This document shows positions 2,286 to 49,633 of a DNA stretch of 64,000 nt, piece by piece (position 1 is the stretch's first letter; each line of letters begins with the position of its first letter). This DNA is from Prevotella sp. tc2-28. GTDB lineage: Bacteria > Bacteroidota > Bacteroidia > Bacteroidales > Bacteroidaceae. The notes under the pieces are model-generated. The model did no database searches. It worked only from the letters and a program-made list of their open reading frames with translations, and had not been told where the DNA came from. The stretch is from the NCBI RefSeq assembly GCF_900107705.1, contig NZ_FNRE01000003.1, positions 1 to 64,000 of the forward strand. Reading direction: 5' to 3'. The translations under genes and the position numbers were made by a program.

Positions 2286-4187
2286 TCAGAACTCCAGCAC
2301 TAACGACTGTCGTGGCTTCATGGTTACGTCAGTCGTTAAATCGTAATAGCGGTTGGTCAGAACATCCTTTGCACGCTTTGTTTTACCGATAATCTCAGCA
2401 TAACGTCCTACTTGCATTGAAGCAGGTTTTGAGGTGCCATTAAGGACAACAAGAACAGTACGTTCTTTGTACTGACGAGCAATGACATAGATGCCACCAT
2501 AAGGAATAAACTGAGTCTGGGTTCCCTTCGTTATACACTCGTTTCCCTGTCGCCAGTGAAGTAGCCGACTCAGCCACGAGAACATCTGCTGTTCTGCACG
2601 AGTACGTCCTTCAGAGGTAAAGCAATTATGCGTATCGCCCGGGAAACCACCTGGGAAATCCTTACGTACGTTGCCATCTGTGATCTCCTTCGTACCGTTC
2701 ATCAACACTTCTGTTCCATAGTAAAGCTGTGGGATGCGATTAACGGTAAGCAACAGGGCAAGAGCTTGTTTGAGTGCCAACGTGTCTCGTCCGTTTCCGA
2801 GGAAGCGGTCCGTGTCATGATTTTCGATGAAAGCCATCACACTCGATGGGTTAGGATAAAGATAGTCATAGACAAAAGATCCATAAAGTCGGTTTAATCC
2901 TTCCCACCAGGCATCGGTCTCTTCATTCTTGGCTTTGTTCAATTTGTCAAAGAAAGAGAAGTCCATGACAGTTTTCAGGAAAGAGTTGGTTTTTGCCAAT
3001 TTAGAGTCCTTTTGCCACGTTGCAGTATATGCTGGTTCCGTAACCCATGTCTCACCGACTGTATTGAAGTTTGGATACTCCTCATCGAGTTCTTTCATCC
3101 ATTGTGCCATTGCGTCAGCATAAGCATACGGATAGGTATCCATACGAATGCCATCGATGCCTACCGTCTCTATCCACCAGATGCTATTCTGAATGAGGTA
3201 GCGCATGAGATGTGGGTTATGCTGATTCAAATCAGGCATCGTTGAAACGAACCACCCTTCGGTAGTTTCCCTGAGATCCACCTTGGAAGCATACGGATCA
3301 ACGACAGGAGTTAGTTTGTAACTTGTTTGCAAGAAGCTGGTACCACGTGAATCTGACGTGCCCTTCGATTCTTTCAACCATTGTGGCAAGTTAAGCCAAT
3401 CGTGAGTAGGCATATCATGGGTCCATGGGTGTTCAAAACCACTATGGTTGAAAATCATGTCCATCACAACCTTAAGGCCTTTTTTATGAGCCTCATCGCA
3501 TAAATGCCTATAGTCCGCATTTGTTCCAAAACGTGGGTCTACCCGATAGTAGTCAGTAGTAGCGTACCCATGATAAGTAGAGTAGCCCCGCTCACTGTCA
3601 GGCGAATCATTCTCCAACACAGGAGTGAGCCATAGGGCAGTCACCCCAAGTTCCTTAAAATAATCCAGATGTTCACATATACCGTTTAGGTCACCACCAT
3701 GACGGAGGGAAGGCTGGGTACGATCCTCCTTATAGGGGCGCATACCTTTTATCTGCGACTGATGTCCCTTCCCCTGAGCAAAGCGGTCTGGCATGAGCAT
3801 GTACAGCACATCGGCATTGGTGAAACCCATTCGTTTATCGCCACTCATCTCGCGTTGTTTCAGTACATAGTCCACTTTCTGTTTGTCGAAATGAAGTGTC
3901 ATGGTACCTGCTTTGGCATTGCGAAGGTTCATATACACCAATAGATAGTTAGGCGATTCAAGTCGAATTACACTGTCAATAGCCACACCGGGATAGTCTG
4001 TGGACACGTTCTTTACCTGAGCTATATTTTTGCCATACACCATCAGTTGTACGTGTGGATTCTTCATTCCGACGAACCAATCGGTTGGGTCAATGCGATT
4101 AATCGTTAATTTTGCTGCACTCATAGTCATTGTAGCTGTTAGAAAAAGAATGCTAATTGTCAAAAAACGTTTCATAGTCAATTTCAT
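2286..4187 (-). CDS. susA: GH13 neopullulanase / cyclomaltodextrinase (SusA-like)
   Basis: The 633-residue product has a signal peptide (about 1-24) and probably acts in the periplasm, cutting imported maltooligosaccharides. The N-terminal region has the IDPTDWFVGM motif of the cyclomaltodextrinase N-domain seen in SusA. GH13 signatures follow in order: MDMIFNH, GIRMDTYPY (nucleophile Asp near 346), VGETWV (acid/base Glu near 377) and IENHDT (near 455). Length agrees with Bacteroides thetaiotaomicron SusA (about 617). It is the last gene of the leftward starch operon, 5 bases after the pullulanase, and its 3' end lies 8 bases from that of convergent preA. Confidence 0.92.
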   Translation of the reverse strand: MKLTMKRFLTISILFLTATMTMSAAKLTINRIDPTDWFVGMKNPHVQLMVYGKNIAQVKNVSTDYPGVAIDSVIRLESPNYLLVYMNLRNAKAGTMTLHFDKQKVDYVLKQREMSGDKRMGFTNADVLYMLMPDRFAQGKGHQSQIKGMRPYKEDRTQPSLRHGGDLNGICEHLDYFKELGVTALWLTPVLENDSPDSERGYSTYHGYATTDYYRVDPRFGTNADYRHLCDEAHKKGLKVVMDMIFNHSGFEHPWTHDMPTHDWLNLPQWLKESKGTSDSRGTSFLQTSYKLTPVVDPYASKVDLRETTEGWFVSTMPDLNQHNPHLMRYLIQNSIWWIETVGIDGIRMDTYPYAYADAMAQWMKELDEEYPNFNTVGETWVTEPAYTATWQKDSKLAKTNSFLKTVMDFSFFDKLNKAKNEETDAWWEGLNRLYGSFVYDYLYPNPSSVMAFIENHDTDRFLGNGRDTLALKQALALLLTVNRIPQLYYGTEVLMNGTKEITDGNVRKDFPGGFPGDTHNCFTSEGRTRAEQQMFSWLSRLLHWRQGNECITKGTQTQFIPYGGIYVIARQYKERTVLVVLNGTSKPASMQVGRYAEIIGKTKRAKDVLTNRYYDLTTDVTMKPRQSLVLEF

Positions 4188-4192
4188 ATAGT

Positions 4193-6097
4193 TTAGTCAT
4201 GTAATATTACGGCAGATTGAGGAGCCACATTAACTGTAGAACCTTCAATGGAATAGAGTCCCTCTTCGTTGATTATTCCTTCGGCACATACCACGGTATA
4301 ACATCCTCGTGGAATAGTTGTTTCCATTGTTTTCCGGCTAGCATTCAACACCACGATAATGTTGCGCCAATTGTCACGTCCTGCATAGTCTTTCAAACGG
4401 AATGCCACAACATCTTTGGGAGACTTTAAAAACTCAAGATGCTTGCGTACCAAATCGGCAGAACCCATACGGAACGCAGGATGATTGCTGCGAAGTGCAA
4501 TAAGTCGACTGTAGTAATTGAAAACCTGAGGATAACGCTGCATGTTTGACCAGTCAATCCGATTGACACTGTCAGGTGACTCAAATGAATTATGAACGCC
4601 TTTTTTGTCACGTAGCAGTTCTTCACCACTGAGTATGAAGGGTACTCCCTGAGAGGTAAGTACAGCAGTCTGTGCCAACAAATCAAGGCGTATCAGTTCA
4701 TCAGTAGTCAGATGGGCAACACTTGTTTTCAACCTATCAACCAAACACATATCGTCGTGACAGGAGACATAACTGATCATTTGAATGGGATCAACAGCCC
4801 ATGGAACAATCGAATAGTTCACCTTTGCCATATCAACCTGCGGATGACTAATACAGCCAACAATGCCAAACTTCAGACTTTCCTTGCTATCTACGACGCC
4901 TCCGAGCCATCCAGGCTTGGAATCATCACTAAAAGGACCTCGCAACGCATCACGTATCTCGTCAGAGAAAGCAGCGATACGGGGCATTAAGGGAATATTT
5001 GCCTTTACACCTAACTGTTCAGTAGGCAGAGCACATTGTCCAGCACTCCATCCCTCGCCATAAATAAAAATAGAAGGATCTATTTTATCAACCATCTGTC
5101 GGATCTGGTTCATCGTCTCAATATCATGAACACCCATAAGGTCGAAACGGAATCCATCAATATGATATTCGTCTATCCAGTATTTCACCGACTCCATCAT
5201 AAAACGTCGCATCAAAGGTCGCTCTGAGGCCGTTTCATTACCACAGCCACTACCATTACTATAATGACCATCATTCGTTTTACGATAATAGTAATCAGGA
5301 TAAGTGCGCTGGAAATTAGAATGTTCAATATCGTAAGTGTGGTTATATACCACATCCAGGACAACTCGGATTCCAGCTTGGTGGAGTGCCTGAACCATCT
5401 GCTTGAACTCACGAATCCGAGCCTCGGGGTGATACGGATCTGTTGCGTAAGACCCTTCAGGTACATTATAATTAACTGGATCGTATCCCCAGTTGTACTT
5501 GTTTTCACTGAGACGAGTTTCGTCAACAGAGCCATAGTCATAACTGGGCAGAATATGTACAGCATTAACGCCCAATTGTTTCAGATGACTGATAGCCCAA
5601 GGCTCTGTCAACGCCAGGAATTTCCCCTTGTGCTTTGCTTCAGGACGCGCTATGGAGAAGTCGCGATGATGCATTTCATAAATGACCAAGTCGACAGGTG
5701 TCTTGCAGACGGGACGTGTATCACGTTCCCACCCTACGGGATTGGTCGTTTCCATTTGAACAATAGCCGCACGTTGACCATTTACGCCAACAGCTTTTGC
5801 GAAAACGCCCGGACACTCCCCCTTACCGATGTCGAAGGTATAGAAGCGTCCCATCATGTCGCCTTTTACTGTAGCACTCCACAAGCCATCAGCATATTTC
5901 ATCTTAATGGTTTTCAGAGCCTTCCCACCCTGTCCTTGTTGATAGATTCGCACTTTGACCGTCTGCGATTCCTTAGGTGCAAAGAGACGGAACGTAGTCG
6001 CTTCAGGAGCATAGGTCATCTCGTTAAAACAGAAATCTTGCGATGTTGCTCCTAACGACATCATTATAACTAGTGATAATAGAACTTTTCTCATCAT
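4193..6097 (-). CDS. pulA: Type I pullulanase (GH13)
   Basis: The 634-residue exported enzyme debranches alpha-1,6 links of pullulan and branched maltodextrins. After a short signal peptide (about 1-19) comes a CBM48-like beta-sandwich, then the type I pullulanase signature YNWGYDP near 202. Catalytic GH13 motifs follow: VVYNH, GFRFDLMG (Asp near 316), YGEGW (Glu near 348) and SCHDD near 446, a variant of the usual SxHDN that keeps the Asp. The ATG follows directly on the TAA stop of the GH97 gene (6098-6100), so translation is probably coupled. I see no lipobox, so a periplasmic location is more likely than a surface one. Confidence 0.92.
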   Translation of the reverse strand: MMRKVLLSLVIMMSLGATSQDFCFNEMTYAPEATTFRLFAPKESQTVKVRIYQQGQGGKALKTIKMKYADGLWSATVKGDMMGRFYTFDIGKGECPGVFAKAVGVNGQRAAIVQMETTNPVGWERDTRPVCKTPVDLVIYEMHHRDFSIARPEAKHKGKFLALTEPWAISHLKQLGVNAVHILPSYDYGSVDETRLSENKYNWGYDPVNYNVPEGSYATDPYHPEARIREFKQMVQALHQAGIRVVLDVVYNHTYDIEHSNFQRTYPDYYYRKTNDGHYSNGSGCGNETASERPLMRRFMMESVKYWIDEYHIDGFRFDLMGVHDIETMNQIRQMVDKIDPSIFIYGEGWSAGQCALPTEQLGVKANIPLMPRIAAFSDEIRDALRGPFSDDSKPGWLGGVVDSKESLKFGIVGCISHPQVDMAKVNYSIVPWAVDPIQMISYVSCHDDMCLVDRLKTSVAHLTTDELIRLDLLAQTAVLTSQGVPFILSGEELLRDKKGVHNSFESPDSVNRIDWSNMQRYPQVFNYYSRLIALRSNHPAFRMGSADLVRKHLEFLKSPKDVVAFRLKDYAGRDNWRNIIVVLNASRKTMETTIPRGCYTVVCAEGIINEEGLYSIEGSTVNVAPQSAVILHD

Positions 6098-10653
<4,556 letters not shown>

Positions 10654-43565: not shown

Positions 43566-43718
43566 GATTATATCAGGGATAAATATTATAAAAACACTTG
43601 CATATCTCAAGAAAAAGTCAAACCCTTGCCGCATCGTACCCCATTTTAGACCTAACTTACCTCCAATACAACCTAGTACTAGCCTCTATTCTTGTGCGAT
43701 TGAACTACATTTGATATA

Positions 43719-43764
43719 CGTTTGTTGTCCGTTCATGAATCGAACAACAATCGGACAACAAACG
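43719..43764. repeat. Inverted repeat with 13-bp arms
   Basis: CGTTTGTTGTCCG (43719-43731) and CGGACAACAAACG (43752-43764) are perfect complements around 20 bases; CGGACAAC then recurs at 43763-43770. A -7-like TACGTTTG (43717-43724) overlaps the left arm, so the hairpin could affect a promoter or the 5' end of the transcript for the 44064 gene. Confidence 0.6.
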
Positions 43765-43835
43765 GACAACAGTGGGAGGAAGAGCGAAGGAAGGGTTTGG
43801 AAAAGTTGGAGATAATATGGAGTGTGATATGACAG

Positions 43836-43888
43836 GAATTAGAGTAGAATTAGAGTAGAATTAGAGTAGAATTAGGGTAGAATTAATA
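43836..43888. repeat. Tandem 11-bp repeat, about five copies
   Basis: The unit GAATTAGAGTA occurs three times exactly, then GAATTAGGGTA and a partial GAATTAATA. The 11-base period is close to one DNA turn. It lies between the inverted repeat and the composite gene at 44064. The whole gap 43566-44063 has no credible gene. Confidence 0.8.
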
Positions 43889-44063
43889 TACAATTAGAAA
43901 ACAATGAAGTATGAAAAGGAAAGGAACAGGAAAGGGACTGATGATGGTAAGCAGATTGCGTCTTTCTATGGTCGAGGCGAGAATAATAGAAAAACAATAT
44001 GAGAGAACACAATAAAACGCAGTTTTAGCAGTTATATTAAGTATACGACTGATAAAATAGCTT

Positions 44064-47000
44064 ATGACGATATCTCTACTTGGTGCATTTTTGTTGAGTT
44101 TTATTTGTGGGATGGTATTTACACCCCTTATCCTTGATTTCTGCAAACAGAAAAACTTATATGACATTCCCAATGATCGAAAGGTACACAAAAATGCCAT
44201 TCCACGACTGGGAGGCATCTCATTCCTTCCCAGCATGTTGATAGCTTTTTTCGTTATACTGATATTCTTCTCATTCTACAAACATGGCGATATTTCCATA
44301 AAGACGTGGAGCATGAGCTTCATTACAGGACTGGCTATCATCTATTTTGTAGGCATCATTGACGACCTGATAGGGTTGAATGCAAGTAGTAAATTTCTGA
44401 CTCAGATAGCAACAGCATGTCTGCTGCCCTTTTCCGGACTATACATCAACAACCTCTACGGACTTTTTGGAATCTATGAGCTGCCTTATATTACAGGTGT
44501 TTTGTTAACCATCTTCATCATTGTGTTTATTGACAATGCCATCAATCTCATCGATGGGATTGACGGACTAGCAGGGGGACTATCGCTGTTAGCATTGAGT
44601 GGTTTTCTGGTATATTTCATACACTATGATGTTTTCATGCACACTTACAGCATCATTGTGGCAGGCTTGATAGGAGCGCTCATTGCCTTCCTTTATTTCA
44701 ATATCTATGGGAGCACTGAGCGGAACACAAAGATTTTCATGGGCGATTCCGGCTCGTTATCGTTAGGATTCACACTTGGATTCCTGTCAATCAAATGTAT
44801 AATGAACAACACATTGATTTGGCCTGAGCGTAGTGAGGCTTTTTTGGTTCCTGCCTCACTGCTTTTCATTCCTACGGCAGACGTTGTGAGAGTCACCTTG
44901 CATAGACTGCGCCATTGTCATCCACTATTTCTAGCCGATAAGAACCACATCCACCACAAGTTCATGAGAGCTGGATTGTCGCAGCATCAGACGTTAGCAT
45001 TCATACTGATGCTGGCTGTTGCTATCGTGATACTGAATGCTTTACTCTACCCTACTATATGTGCAACATGGATAATAGCAATTGATGCTGCGCTATACTG
45101 CCTTGTCAATGTATGCATCAACCAATGGATAGATAGCAATTATATGAAGAGAGCTTTCGACGTGATTACATCATGTCTGTGTCTCATCATTTTTTCCCCT
45201 TTAATACTCTTATGCTATCTCATCATCAAAATTGGGGGAGGACCTGCTATCTACAAGCAAGAGCGCATAGGACTGGGAGGGCGCCCTTTCTACATTTACA
45301 AATTCCGAAGCATGAAAGTAGATGCAGAAAAAGAAGGTGAAGAGTTGCTGCAAATGGACAACGACCCACGACTGACAAAAATCGGACGCATTCTACGCAG
45401 TCATCATATTGATGAACTACCTCAGTTATGGAACGTCCTTCGTGGCGACATGTCCTTTGTCGGACCTCGTCCGGAGCGCAAGTACTATATTGAACAAATT
45501 ATGAAGCGTGATTCACGATATGAAAAACTATACGCATTGCGCCCTGGAGTAACCAGTTATGCTACTTTGAAAAATGGTTATACAGATACAATTGACAAGA
45601 TGCTGGTACGTCTGGAAATGGATTTATATTATTTAGAACATCAATCATTATGGACTGACATGAAAATATTACTGAAGACGTTTGTAAACATCGCATCAGG
45701 ACGAATTTTCTGTATAGCTTTCGCCATACTATGTATGAACAATGCTATGGCACAGGATTCATTGCAGACCAACATCACCTACGACCTGACGACGGAAGCC
45801 GCCTTTGGTACGGGCGACTTCACAGCTTATCAACTGGTAACGAATCGACATCATGTATTGGCAACACGCCCCAACACGGCCTATCTGCGAGGTGCCGTCA
45901 ATGTAGAGCATGCGTTCAATGAAGACTGGAAACTTTCCGGTACTATCGATGCCATCGGTTCTCTGCATGCTGATCACAAATCCTATCTGCAGCAGTGTTA
46001 TGCCAACCTCTCGTGGAAATCGTTCTTTCTGGAGGTAGGCAGCAGGGAACAGCAACAGGTAGTGCGGGACGATCTGCTTTCCGTTGGCTCGTTCGTTAAA
46101 GGCACCAATGCCAAACCTATTCCTCAGGTACACATCGGAACTAATGGATTCTGGAACATTCCATATACAAAAGGATGGATACAGGTAAACTTCGATTTCG
46201 GCTATGGGAAATTCCTGGATAACAGCTATCGGGAGAAACAATATTTTGATCGTCAAGATGTCTGCTACCAATATGTCACAGGAGCTTATTATCACCAGAA
46301 GCATCTTTATATCCGCACCAACCCAGAGAAAACATTCTTTGCAATGGTGGGTATTGAACATGCCGCCCAGTTTGGTGGCACCAACTACAAGAATCAATCA
46401 GGTATCTTGGTCGCAAAAAGCAAGCCAGCTAACTTCAAAGCCTTCTGGAAAGTTATCCTGCCCCTAGGCGATAGCAACTATTTTGAGAATGAGGCTCTGG
46501 AGGATTGGGTGTATGGAAATCACGTGGGCGTGATGACCTATCAGATTGGATGGAACATCAACAAGAGCCATCAAGTACAAGCATATTTAGACAATCCATT
46601 TGAAGACGGATCTGGTATTCGTAAGGGTAATGGTTGGGACGGTTTATGGGGTTTGCAGTATAGCAACAAAACACTAGGCAGGCAGTATGTGCGCGGAGCT
46701 GTCTTTGAATATTTCCAAAGCACCAACCAGTCAGGTCCTTTGCATTGGGATAAGGGTGATTTTCCGGAACCTATCCGTAGCCAAATTACCGACTTAGTGA
46801 CGGGTAATGACAATTATTACAACCACTTGTTCTATGGTAGTTATGCTCACTACGGCATGACGCCAGGCATTGCCCTGATTACATCTCCCATCTATAATAA
46901 GAATGGGTTCAATGAGTTTAGCAACAATCGTGTCAAGGCATGGCATCTGGGTGTCAATGGCGAGTTGACAGACCATCTTTCCTATCTTGTCAAAGGCTCT

Positions 47001-47192
47001 TATCAGGAAGGATGGGGCACCTATGGTGCTCCTGCACCTCAAAAGCTACACTCTTTCGATGCCATGTTCCAAGGCATCTACATACAGGGGCCTTGGAAGA
47101 TCTCTGCTGCCTATGCTTTCGATGCAGGCAACGTCTATGGCGACTGTAACACGTTTAACATTAAAATAGGTTATCATGGCAAGATTCTTTAA
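44064..47192 (+). CDS. Composite WecA/PNPT + WbaP/PglC-type PHPT + Wzi-like outer-membrane protein
   Basis: The 1042-codon frame has three parts. Residues 1-350: a WecA/TagO-type polyprenyl-phosphate sugar-1-phosphate transferase, with IDDLIGLNASSKF, NAINLIDGIDGLAGG (near 160), FMGDSGSLSLG (near 226) and HIHHKFMRAG (near 297). Residues 358-547: a bacterial sugar transferase (PHPT), with YKQERIGLGGRPF, YKFRSMK, DELPQLWNVLRGDMSFVGP. Residues 548-563 are hydrophobic and end NNAMA before QD, a good signal-peptidase I site. Residues 564-1042 (479) resemble the Wzi capsule-assembly barrel. Both transferases keep their catalytic residues. Met360 and Met533 stand at the domain borders, so separate internal starts are possible: from Met533 (45660) the frame begins with a normal signal peptide. 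Otherwise this is a polyprotein cut at 563. It overlaps the lipoprotein gene by 17 bases. Confidence 0.85.
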   Translation: MTISLLGAFLLSFICGMVFTPLILDFCKQKNLYDIPNDRKVHKNAIPRLGGISFLPSMLIAFFVILIFFSFYKHGDISIKTWSMSFITGLAIIYFVGIIDDLIGLNASSKFLTQIATACLLPFSGLYINNLYGLFGIYELPYITGVLLTIFIIVFIDNAINLIDGIDGLAGGLSLLALSGFLVYFIHYDVFMHTYSIIVAGLIGALIAFLYFNIYGSTERNTKIFMGDSGSLSLGFTLGFLSIKCIMNNTLIWPERSEAFLVPASLLFIPTADVVRVTLHRLRHCHPLFLADKNHIHHKFMRAGLSQHQTLAFILMLAVAIVILNALLYPTICATWIIAIDAALYCLVNVCINQWIDSNYMKRAFDVITSCLCLIIFSPLILLCYLIIKIGGGPAIYKQERIGLGGRPFYIYKFRSMKVDAEKEGEELLQMDNDPRLTKIGRILRSHHIDELPQLWNVLRGDMSFVGPRPERKYYIEQIMKRDSRYEKLYALRPGVTSYATLKNGYTDTIDKMLVRLEMDLYYLEHQSLWTDMKILLKTFVNIASGRIFCIAFAILCMNNAMAQDSLQTNITYDLTTEAAFGTGDFTAYQLVTNRHHVLATRPNTAYLRGAVNVEHAFNEDWKLSGTIDAIGSLHADHKSYLQQCYANLSWKSFFLEVGSREQQQVVRDDLLSVGSFVKGTNAKPIPQVHIGTNGFWNIPYTKGWIQVNFDFGYGKFLDNSYREKQYFDRQDVCYQYVTGAYYHQKHLYIRTNPEKTFFAMVGIEHAAQFGGTNYKNQSGILVAKSKPANFKAFWKVILPLGDSNYFENEALEDWVYGNHVGVMTYQIGWNINKSHQVQAYLDNPFEDGSGIRKGNGWDGLWGLQYSNKTLGRQYVRGAVFEYFQSTNQSGPLHWDKGDFPEPIRSQITDLVTGNDNYYNHLFYGSYAHYGMTPGIALITSPIYNKNGFNEFSNNRVKAWHLGVNGELTDHLSYLVKGSYQEGWGTYGAPAPQKLHSFDAMFQGIYIQGPWKISAAYAFDAGNVYGDCNTFNIKIGYHGKIL

Positions 47193-47568
47193 ATATTTTC
47201 TCTTTTCACTTTGTGCGATTCACTTTTCACTTCTCTTTTCCTCATGTCAAGAAGGAAGAGAAGCCGGCGATTTGCTGGGCCAGTGGCGCATGGATCATAC
47301 CGATTCCAAATACATCAGTTTCTCTGGTTCTATTGTTTGGGTGAAGGATCTTAAGAACTGTAACGTGTATGGAAATTTCCAGCATGTGGGTGACAGTCTG
47401 TTCATTCAGTGTTATTCAGAAAAGGCAGAGAAAGCAGACACCATAATGATTGAGGAATCGTTTGGTTTCAAGCCTTTCAATAATATCAGGGTAAAAATAG
47501 CTGCCTTAGATAACGACCAGCTTGTCATTACCAAAGGCAGCCAAACATGGAGTTTCCACAAATACTGA
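47176..47568 (+). CDS. Lipocalin-like lipoprotein
   Basis: The 130-residue protein has a hydrophobic leader and lipobox FSSC (Cys24), then LLGQWRMDHTDSKYI, a G-x-W start and beta-rich pattern like the lipocalin-like lipoproteins of Bacteroidota, ending with LVITKGSQTWSFHKY. It overlaps the composite gene by 17 bases and is the last gene of the exopolysaccharide locus, so it may assist the Wzi-like part or polymer attachment. It converges with the GH51 gene, leaving one base between them. Confidence 0.75.
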   Translation: MARFFKYFLFSLCAIHFSLLFSSCQEGREAGDLLGQWRMDHTDSKYISFSGSIVWVKDLKNCNVYGNFQHVGDSLFIQCYSEKAEKADTIMIEESFGFKPFNNIRVKIAALDNDQLVITKGSQTWSFHKY

Positions 47569-47569
47569 T

Positions 47570-49597
47570 TTATTTCTTGATGCGGTAGATACGGAACGAC
47601 ATGGCAGGAAGCAGGTCGTTGATGACCGACTGCTTTTTACCTACCTCAACTGCCGCACTACCTTTCTTCGGTGTGATGAATTCAGGATGCTGGATGCTGT
47701 TCTCATCATCCAGACCCTGATGACTCAGCGTAAGTGTCTGAGCAGTTTCGGCACCTGTCATGTCCTTCAGATTCAGTGTGATGGACTGCTCGTTCTTCGA
47801 CGTATTGACCACCTTGACAATGACCTCGTTGGCATCTTTGTCATAGGCGGCTGAAGCAAAGAGTCCATTCTGACCTTCCTGGTTGGCGACAGGCTGAGGC
47901 TTGCCCTTTTTCGTCTTGGCTGGTGTGGTCAGCGAAAGAACATGCGTACCCTTGTTGGTGGCGTACATCTGCTGAACATAGTAGCTCACGGTCTTGAACA
48001 TCTGTGTCTGGTCGTACCAAATCTGGTCTGGACGCCATTGCCATCCGTCGACATGGGCGAAGAGCGGAGCAGGAGTCGTCATATGTACGATGTCGGCATT
48101 ACGCTCAAAGCCTGTCATGTGAGCAGCCTCCAAGATAGCAGCCTCGTAGTGGTTCCACTTCTTACCCTTGCCGTGACAGGCATACTCACCCGCAAACACC
48201 TTTGGTCCCTTGCGATCGTAAGAGTCGTAGCGGAGGCCATGGCTCAGGAACCATGCTTCATTACGATAATAGTGCTCGTCGTAGAGATCAACCTTCAGTT
48301 CCTTCATACGGGGTTGCAGCAGGTCGAAATCCCAACCCTCAGAGTTAGGGCCTGTGGTACCGATCAGTTTCAGCGTTGGATATTTGGCACGCAAGGCATC
48401 ACTAAACTTCTTCAGACGAGCCGTAAATACAGGACCAAAACCACCGTGAGCCTCATCATAGTCCCACTGCTCGTTACCAACACCCAAGAACTTCAGGTTA
48501 AAAGGAGCAGGGTGACCCATGTCGGCACGTACCTCACCCCACTTCGTAGTTACATCACCATTGGCAAACTCTACAAGGTCGAGAGCATCCTGGATATAGG
48601 AATCCAGGTCGTCAAGGGCCACATGCACACCAGGCTTGGTGGGGTTAGGGTTCTGGAATTGACAACTTAGGCCACATGAGATGACGGGCAATGGTTCGGC
48701 ACCGATGTCCTCAGCCAACTGAAAGAACTCAAAGAAACCCAGTCCATATGACTGATAGTAGTCGGGGAAGTAGCGGAAGTCAAAGGTATGTTCCCAGCGG
48801 TTCTGGTTCAGCGGACGGTTTTCTACAGGACCTACAGAGTTCTTCCACTGATAACGGGTTGTCAGGTCGGTACCCTCCACGATGCATCCACCAGGGAAAC
48901 GGAAGATACCCGGGCGTAGGTCTTCCAAAGCTTGTGCTAAGTCGCGACGCATTCCATTCTCACGGTTCTTATAGGTTTTGACAGGGAACAACGACACATG
49001 CTCCAGACAGACTTTGTTAGCACTATTCAGGAAAATGCGCAGTTTAGCATGCTTCAGTGTTTTCGAAGCAGTCAGTGTAACGGTGTATTTCTTCCATTCC
49101 TTGGAGGTGATATTCAGTTTCTGCTCAGCAAACTCTTGGCGTTCATCCATCGAATTCTCCTGAATGAGCTGGACACGGATGGCAGAATTACCCTTAGGAG
49201 CCTTGGCCCATACGGAGAAGCGGTAGCTCTCACCTTTCTTTACGCCAATGCCGAAGTACCCCTCATTCACCAGACCTGTGCGACGGTCGCGATGACCAGG
49301 ATTGCTCAATTCCACATAGTGCGGGCAACGCTCAAAGGGTCCGTCATCCTCCACCTCGACACGACCAAAGGCCTGCCATCCCATCAAGTGCTGAGGAAAC
49401 TCGAAGGAGCGGTTCTTCACCAGTTCACCATACAATCCGCCATCAGCGGCATAGTTGATGTCCTCGAAAAAAATACCATACATGGTCGATTGGATAGGCG
49501 CACCTAATTTCTTGGTACTTACATCCATCGTCATTTGTGCCATAGCGACAAGGGATATACCCATGACAACAGCCAATGATAAGAATCTTTTCTTCAT
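47570..49597 (-). CDS. GH51 alpha-L-arabinofuranosidase
   Basis: The 675-residue exported enzyme removes arabinofuranose from arabinan or arabinoxylan. Start is taken at MKKRFLSLAV (49597); the frame extends nine codons upstream but those precede the signal peptide. After the signal peptide (to about AMAQ) come the N-terminal barrel strand and a CBM4/9-like jelly roll (about 70-190), then the barrel with GIFRFPGGCIVEG, LGVGNEQWDYDEAH (acid/base Glu) and FAGEYACHG (nucleophile Glu), and a C-terminal beta-domain. It lies 36 bases after the GH43 gene in a two-gene operon without SusC/D. Confidence 0.93.
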   Translation of the reverse strand: MKKRFLSLAVVMGISLVAMAQMTMDVSTKKLGAPIQSTMYGIFFEDINYAADGGLYGELVKNRSFEFPQHLMGWQAFGRVEVEDDGPFERCPHYVELSNPGHRDRRTGLVNEGYFGIGVKKGESYRFSVWAKAPKGNSAIRVQLIQENSMDERQEFAEQKLNITSKEWKKYTVTLTASKTLKHAKLRIFLNSANKVCLEHVSLFPVKTYKNRENGMRRDLAQALEDLRPGIFRFPGGCIVEGTDLTTRYQWKNSVGPVENRPLNQNRWEHTFDFRYFPDYYQSYGLGFFEFFQLAEDIGAEPLPVISCGLSCQFQNPNPTKPGVHVALDDLDSYIQDALDLVEFANGDVTTKWGEVRADMGHPAPFNLKFLGVGNEQWDYDEAHGGFGPVFTARLKKFSDALRAKYPTLKLIGTTGPNSEGWDFDLLQPRMKELKVDLYDEHYYRNEAWFLSHGLRYDSYDRKGPKVFAGEYACHGKGKKWNHYEAAILEAAHMTGFERNADIVHMTTPAPLFAHVDGWQWRPDQIWYDQTQMFKTVSYYVQQMYATNKGTHVLSLTTPAKTKKGKPQPVANQEGQNGLFASAAYDKDANEVIVKVVNTSKNEQSITLNLKDMTGAETAQTLTLSHQGLDDENSIQHPEFITPKKGSAAVEVGKKQSVINDLLPAMSFRIYRIKK

Positions 49598-49633
49598 TTT
49601 CTTAGGTCTAATAAAGTTATACAAATGTTCATA

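Follow-up and report, generated by a model that had tools for sequence, protein, structure and literature searches.

How could two phosphoglycosyl transferases (PGTs) and a β-barrel of the outer membrane all be made from one uninterrupted reading frame? The question is raised by a 64,000-nucleotide stretch of Prevotella sp. tc2-28 DNA (contig NZ_FNRE01000003.1, positions 1 to 64,000, forward strand; hereafter the window), in which translation of 44064-47192 meets no internal stop across 1042 codons. The frame joins a polytopic PGT of the PNPT family, a small monotopic PGT of the PHPT family, a predicted internal signal peptide and a Wzi-like barrel, and glycosyltransferase genes are located upstream of it. 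From comparison with related loci (G and L numbers denote genomes and fetched loci, G000 being the window's own genome), we conclude that the fusion is genuine and under selection, and that it belongs to a polysaccharide locus; more tentatively, we propose that its product would be cut by signal peptidase I and that a start nested within the frame would supply additional Wzi.

Three parts in one frame

Each part is recognized by its own Pfam family: Glycos_transf_4 (PF00953) at residues 84-245 (112 bits against a curated cut-off of 27), Bac_transf (PF02397) at residues 362-543 (215 bits; cut-off 27) and Caps_assemb_Wzi (PF14052) at residues 612-1023 (65.2 bits; cut-off 30.1). An earlier reading of the letters alone (the sequence-only reading) had described 1042 stop-free codons with PNPT, PHPT and Wzi parts, and the translation and these three matches above cut-off bear it out; the motifs it named are likewise present in the translation, namely NAINLIDGIDG, MGDSGS and HIHH, which we take to be the PNPT catalytic motifs, and KFRSM and GDMSFVGPRPE, presumably typical PHPT catalytic motifs.

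In a sequence search, the PNPT part matches MraY in the PDB (5jnq, E 4.8e-12); in a structure model, it has 11 long helices and matches MraY structures by Foldseek (TMt 0.71-0.75). The C-terminus of WecA is cytoplasmic, and by analogy that of the PNPT part would be so too, on the side that the PHPT has to occupy. The PHPT part matches WbaP (E 7e-34) and the PglC-type 8e37 (E 4e-29) in the PDB, and profiles and motifs together place the two enzymes in the PHPT and PNPT families. The Wzi part has no PDB sequence match at E up to 1; its model, with strands spanning residues 569-1041, matches Wzi (2ynk, TMt 0.55) and other porins in Foldseek, which supports an outer-membrane β-barrel fold with moderate confidence. 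The model overall is of moderate quality (mean pLDDT 72, pTM 0.46) and poor over the PHPT. Relatives of the Wzi part at 77 and 69% identity are Prevotella metagenome bins. A Pfam search for Wzi in eight genomes returned one in G000; the same search overlooked the Wzi genes of both G162 and G250, so G000 may have further copies.

The fused frame in a second species

The sequence-only reading had worried about a lost stop codon and, separately, had suggested looking for the three-part frame in related genomes. With residues 313-585 as query, a sample of 398 genomes of the genus, drawn from a larger group, yielded one other genome, G162, with an uninterrupted three-part frame among the matches listed; that frame has 1044 codons stop to stop, is 86% identical across the junction query, and answers the worry. 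The coding sequences of the window and G162 align over 1042 codons with 0 gaps, with a synonymous divergence (dS) of 0.97, a nonsynonymous divergence (dN) of 0.092 and a dN/dS of 0.095; by part, dN/dS is 0.112 for the PNPT, 0.043 for the PHPT, 0.104 for Wzi and 0.31 for the hydrophobic core between the latter two. At the DNA level, the alignment starts at 43990, some 75 bases ahead of the frame, and continues to 51685, the limit of the G162 sequence fetched (85.5% identity, 7698 columns).

An ungapped frame at this distance and under this constraint therefore reflects neither a sequencing slip nor a recently dead gene. The notion of an artefact or of decay (sequencing error, lost stop or pseudogene) is contradicted both by the G162 frame, which has no gap or stop, and by a PHPT-Wzi join in three further genomes, and we give it a negligible chance; sequencing error and a lost stop were ruled out as candidates by the equivalent frame of G162. 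As judged by sequence comparison, the fused frame is real and is maintained by selection in a second species.

Gene arrangement at the two joins

Forty regions were fetched and 45 sequences scanned, and the joins were compared in 36 loci, the window included; L067, L068, L072, L073, L106, L107, L113, L118 and L125 were excluded because the PHPT was absent, partial, distant or not adjacent to the other parts. A PNPT precedes a PHPT in 28 loci (junction 1): in 21 the two genes overlap by ATGA and are read in different frames, 3 (G000, G162 and G242) are fused in frame, and the remaining 4 are spaced otherwise. The first PHPT codon at this join is ATG in the window, TTG in G162 and CTG in G242; therefore, a separate PHPT start is not conserved. 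The sequence-only reading had placed such a start at Met360, whereas the Met is residue 361, at base 45144, and is preceded by Tyr360.

Two-part frames resemble the window in having a PNPT in frame with a PHPT, and have no Wzi part: L101 (G242; 550 codons), L142 (G008; 3307-5178, minus strand; 624 aa, 625 codons stop to stop) and L144 (G001; 2765-4681, minus strand; 639 aa, 640 codons stop to stop). Because the PNPT is a distant one in both G008 and G001 (29 and 24% identity, respectively), the PNPT-PHPT fusion seems to have had more than one origin.

Wzi lies behind the PHPT in 29 loci (junction 2), in separate frames in 24 and fused in 5 (G000, G162, G412, G119 and G227). All 31 PHPTs that are not joined to Wzi end in GK[IK]F followed by a stop; all five joined PHPTs read GR[IV]F and then pass directly, with identical 60-base spacing, into the hydrophobic core of the Wzi signal peptide. 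This direct run therefore means that wzi no longer has its own ATG, that the PHPT stop and the bases between the genes have been lost too, and that the PHPT tail replaces the n-region; in separate-gene relatives, Wzi has an ordinary N-terminal signal peptide. The R547-I-F residues may be a relic of the PHPT end, which is KIF in relatives, or of a wzi n-region, which begins MKR in some relatives.

Surveyed with residues 493-662 (E 1e-30 or better), 68 of the 398 genus genomes match: 5 do so over the whole query and stop-free, and 10 over the whole query but with at least one stop; G306 covers query residues 32-170, also interrupted by a stop, and in the other 52 the alignment starts no earlier than query residue 23. 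Across the order, matches at E 1e-40 or better were obtained in 32 of 247 sampled genomes, the window's own among them, and in none of the others is the alignment stop-free from the PHPT side; G518 aligns from query residue 13 but carries a TAA. Samples centred on G162 and on G412 were almost identical genome sets. The sequence-only reading had named always-separate parts in relatives as the finding that would count against it; G162 has the three-part frame, and the PHPT-Wzi join is present in 5 of 398 genus genomes.

Several other arrangements were seen among these loci. L089 (G227; 3639-6357 in reverse-strand numbering) has tandem PHPT genes, 35 and 76% identical to the window PHPT, the second of which is the one joined to Wzi. 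In L115 (G222), wzi at 4500-5813 is spread over three frames, and in L140 (G213) the PHPT at 1792-2347 lies in two frames, each as if broken by a frameshift. L070, L073, L076, L078 and others, from other Prevotella-type genomes, carry a different Wzi (27-30% identical), often near a PNPT and on the opposite strand.

Trees were built after dropping matches below 55% (PHPT) or 50% (Wzi) identity or below 85% coverage and, for the PNPT, short matches and those below 45% identity. The PHPT tree pairs G000 with G162 (100/99) and G412 with G119 (100/96) and groups all four weakly (67/84); forcing all five joined PHPTs, G227 included, into one clade is mildly rejected (approximately unbiased test, p-AU 0.039). 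The Wzi trees are mosaic, with the unfused G250 beside G162. It is possible that the PHPT-Wzi join arose once and was then reshuffled by recombination, or that it arose twice; in view of the p-AU value, the weak four-gene group and the mosaic Wzi tree, we do not accept a single origin as settled.

Predicted export signal and cut site

As the sequence-only reading had it, the hydrophobic run ends AMA/QD, at Ala563/Gln564, leaving a Wzi-like part of 479 residues. Ala at -1 and Gln at +1 are found in all five joined species, though the hydrophobic core diverges; the -3 residue is A, L, A, S and V across the five genes, and the best 12-residue hydropathy, calculated for the five fused genes only, is about 2.5. 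The cut site was assigned by rule (basic n-region, hydrophobic core, small residues at -3 and -1). In one report (PMC5837995), Gln after the cut is given as a Bacteroidetes rule for signal peptidase I substrates, with Gln at +1 in >60% of those predicted in P. gingivalis.

Because no stop lies between Met1 and the end of Wzi, the frame as written makes a joined PHPT-Wzi product unavoidable for any ribosome that reads the PHPT to its end, and this chain is most likely cut at Ala563/Gln564. Should it stay uncut, Wzi would remain joined to the PHPT as a periplasmic domain tethered to the inner membrane, with a new role. The joined frame itself is compatible with such a protein; the retention of Ala/Gln in 5/5 while the core diverges (core dN/dS 0.31 vs 0.095 overall) and the ordinary N-terminal signal peptide of Wzi in separate-gene relatives speak against it, and we consider it very unlikely indeed. 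That at least signal peptidase cleavage operates seems to us quite probable, as a matter of judgement and not of measurement.

A start-like site in the PHPT tail

In Bacteroidetes, Prevotella included, Shine-Dalgarno pairing is apparently unused, and low structure and A-rich upstream bases mark true starts, according to two reports (PMC3155529; PMC6847099). A weight matrix was built from 92 clear starts against 707 internal ATGs of related loci; neither the matrix nor the folding background drew on the PHPT-Wzi joined loci, on G306 or on two flanking loci from the genomes concerned. The context of the tail ATG ranks above 99.0 (G000), 97.9 (G162), 99.0 (G412) and 99.0% (G119) of the 707 internal ATGs, and folding as weak is found at 15, 8, 14 and 1 of them, respectively; folding equally weak to that at the window's Met533, which the sequence-only reading had positioned correctly, occurs at 34 of the 92 true starts. 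Folding energy at the tail codon is -1.7 to -4.5 kcal/mol in these four joined genes vs -20.4 to -7.1 in 31 PHPTs that are not Wzi-joined. Among 49 PHPT tails not joined to Wzi (matches below 55% identity or short of the C-terminus dropped, PNPT-fused PHPTs without Wzi included, and the matrix here trained with the fused loci included), an ATG falls within codons 524-544 in 24, and 1 of the 49 tails has one that scores 4 or more.

The candidate codon is Met533 in G000, G412 and G119, whereas G162 has Ile533 and Met537, and G227 has Met531 without start-like features (context above 69.6% of internal ATGs, score -2.6; folding -12.2, equally weak at 330/707). Met533 or Met537 thus looks like a true start in four of the five joined species, which suggests that Wzi is synthesized separately besides the joined chain. 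The window's Met361 site has a context above 97.3% of internal ATGs, a figure taken at the preceding codon (Tyr360).

A stand-alone wzi in G306

The 10 kb of G306 that were fetched contain only the tail of this PHPT, and no PNPT was found there; another PHPT lies upstream. The G306 wzi is intact and carries a remnant of the PHPT tail: it begins MKILFKTFEYIVSGSYLCIAFAILCTNNAMA/QDS, two codons after a stop, and shares ATGAAAATATTA with the window; its first ATG is the equivalent of Met533. Folding at this start is weak (-4.6). Compared with the window in 120-base segments, this gene is 78-90% identical in the first three, 98% in the last and 58-81% in the nine between; its Wzi part has a dN/dS of 0.067 at a dS of 2.4, near saturation. 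The G306 wzi is most simply explained as a descendant of the joined gene by deletion and recombination, and the Met533 site is likely its start if it is expressed.

Weighing cleavage against an internal start

These results bear on two one-sided accounts. If the fused frame were a polyprotein without any internal start, all Wzi would be released by signal peptidase I from the 1042-residue or a PHPT-Wzi chain; the stop-free frame that makes a joined chain unavoidable, the Ala/Gln pair retained in 5/5 and the join in G227 without a start-like tail ATG fit this, whereas the start-like ATG at 533 or 537 in four of five species (in the top 2.1% of 707 on each of two related measures) and the G306 stand-alone wzi headed by the Met533-equivalent ATG do not, and we think it rather improbable. 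If, conversely, Wzi came essentially just from Met533, the joined product would be a degraded or inactive by-product. The tail ATG, start-like in context and weakly folded in 4/5, and the G306 derivative accord with such a nested gene; yet every PHPT would then bear Wzi or a remnant tail, which sits poorly with the strong purifying selection on the PHPT (dN/dS 0.043), and G227 does not have the site. We regard this second account as distinctly unlikely.

Cleavage and an internal start need not be mutually exclusive, and we judge, again as opinion and not as measurement, that the chances somewhat favour both operating to some degree. The sequence-only reading had offered a polyprotein or internal starts; the forced joined product, the Ala/Gln pair in all five species and the start-like Met533/537 in four sustain these two proposals; its separate PHPT start, which is not conserved, lacks such support.

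In the mechanism that we propose, two changes would have built the gene: a net one-base shift at the end of the PNPT gene would have made an ATGA-overlap pair one frame, and a deletion would have removed the DNA from the PHPT stop codon through the spacer between the genes to the original start of wzi, after which the C-terminal tail of the PHPT would serve in place of the n-region of the Wzi signal peptide. Ribosomes entering at Met1 would then yield a PNPT-PHPT-signal-Wzi chain; the PNPT and PHPT would remain in the inner membrane, and the internal signal peptide would route Wzi via Sec; and a cut by signal peptidase I after A563 would add a membrane helix to the C-terminus of the PHPT and make Gln the first residue of Wzi. 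Some Wzi precursor would be started at Met533, as is likely for this species, would give identical mature Wzi, and would let the amount of barrel differ from the amount of enzyme. The whole of this reading, a three-protein polyprotein cut into a linked PNPT-PHPT enzyme and Wzi, with a nested start for extra Wzi and with anchor supply thereby tied to the supply of initiating enzyme, we would place a little short of an even chance.

Several points weigh against the proposed mechanism. The start codon is not fixed in place across the five joined species (Ile533 and Met537 in G162), and the join in G227 without a start-like ATG means that an internal start is not universal; the context and folding measures both largely mirror A/T-richness; the four start-bearing genes are two pairs of close relatives; the tail site was picked once the join was already known; synonymous-site conservation around Met533 is not unusual; and the ATG that heads the G306 wzi has only a mediocre context score (0.30, higher than 87% of internal ATGs). 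As to cleavage, the cut site is rule-based, and the Leu at -3 in G162 is not a classic small residue. The PHPT region of the structure model is of low confidence.

Relation to known systems

The cytochrome b/c1 precursor of Bradyrhizobium (fbcH) is reportedly encoded by one gene and cut by signal peptidase I into an inner-membrane and an exported protein. The fused frame is like it in that a multi-spanning inner-membrane protein is followed by an in-frame signal peptide (predicted here) and an exported protein, and unlike it in that the exported part is an outer-membrane barrel, the parts number three, the pathway is that of a surface polymer, and a start-like site lies inside the frame. In-frame internal starts are said to give a second, shorter product in cases such as archaeal Cas11b; the fused frame shares with these a start-like ATG inside a longer frame, but its shorter product would begin with an export signal that the long product carries internally. 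The barrel is like E. coli Wzi (2ynk), the group 1 capsule outer-membrane protein, in its Foldseek match and PF14052 domain; unlike in E. coli Wzi, the signal peptide appears to be partly supplied by the PHPT tail. Bi-PGTs, as described in one report (PMC10942596), are monotopic PGTs with other domains fused at either end. The fused frame likewise has functional parts attached to a small monotopic PGT, but its C-terminal partner is a signal peptide with an outer-membrane barrel, and its N-terminal partner belongs to the other PGT superfamily.

The sequence-only reading knew of no described example. As to principle this is too strong, since signal-peptidase-cut polyproteins, in-frame internal starts and Bi-PGTs (PMC10942596) are precedents; as to the join of a PGT to an outer-membrane barrel, literature searches aimed at PGT-Wzi fusions and at polyproteins with an internal signal peptide gave no description of this one, in a coverage that most subscription papers fall outside.

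If the proposed reading is true, this would be a naturally occurring polyprotein of bacteria that reaches, within a single pathway, from the inner membrane across the periplasm to the outer membrane; genes could fuse although one product must exit the cytoplasm, with an upstream tail recruited into the signal peptide, and the C-terminus of an enzyme would double as an export signal. The case bears on whether an outer-membrane barrel that follows an 11-helix membrane protein can be exported and released by Sec and signal peptidase I, and on how bacteria without Shine-Dalgarno starts position a start inside coding sequence. With two alternative initiating enzymes, PNPT and PHPT, in one chain, it also raises the question of whether both act in one polymer.

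Features and neighbouring genes

Table 1. Coordinates of the fused frame, its parts and associated genes (window positions unless a locus is named).
Feature	Position	Strand	Basis or remark
Whole fused frame, PNPT-PHPT-signal peptide-Wzi	44064..47192	+	1042 aa plus stop; equivalent frame in G162
PNPT part, WecA/MraY-like polytopic PGT, residues 1-359	44064..45140	+	PF00953, MraY matches, 11 long model helices
Junction 1, PNPT tail in frame with PHPT; Met361 codon at 45144	45120..45146	+	Comparison of 28 loci
PHPT part, small monotopic PGT (PglC/WbaP catalytic domain), residues 361-549	45144..45710	+	PF02397, PDB matches
Start-like site in PHPT tail: weakly folded upstream 25 bases and Met533 ATG (45660)	45635..45662	+	Context score, folding
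Predicted signal-peptide region, residues 533-563	45660..45752	+	Comparison of 36 loci, cut-site check, Q-rule
Within signal-peptide region: PHPT tail 533-549 in the n-region's place; 550-563, hydrophobic core and cut region			Predicted cut Ala563/Gln564
Predicted mature Wzi-like outer-membrane barrel, residues 564-1042	45753..47189	+	PF14052, Foldseek to 2ynk
Downstream small gene, Lipocalin_8-like neighbour outside the fusion	47176..47568	+	26.6 bits, just below the 27.2 cut-off
G306 stand-alone wzi	L137 4504-6036		Intact, 510 codons

The ATG of the lipocalin-like gene overlaps the end of wzi by 17 bases. Beyond the polysaccharide locus, an alpha-L-arabinofuranosidase gene lies on the minus strand at 47570-49624, and the alignments to G162 and G306 extend over this gene too. 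On the other side, 43591-43989 of the window aligns at 75% with G162, where the matching DNA consists of the sequence preceding a 246-codon gene without a Pfam family (L086 3598-4338) and roughly the first 50 bases of that gene. The window lacks about 0.7 kb of this gene, and a relative of it precedes wzi in G306.

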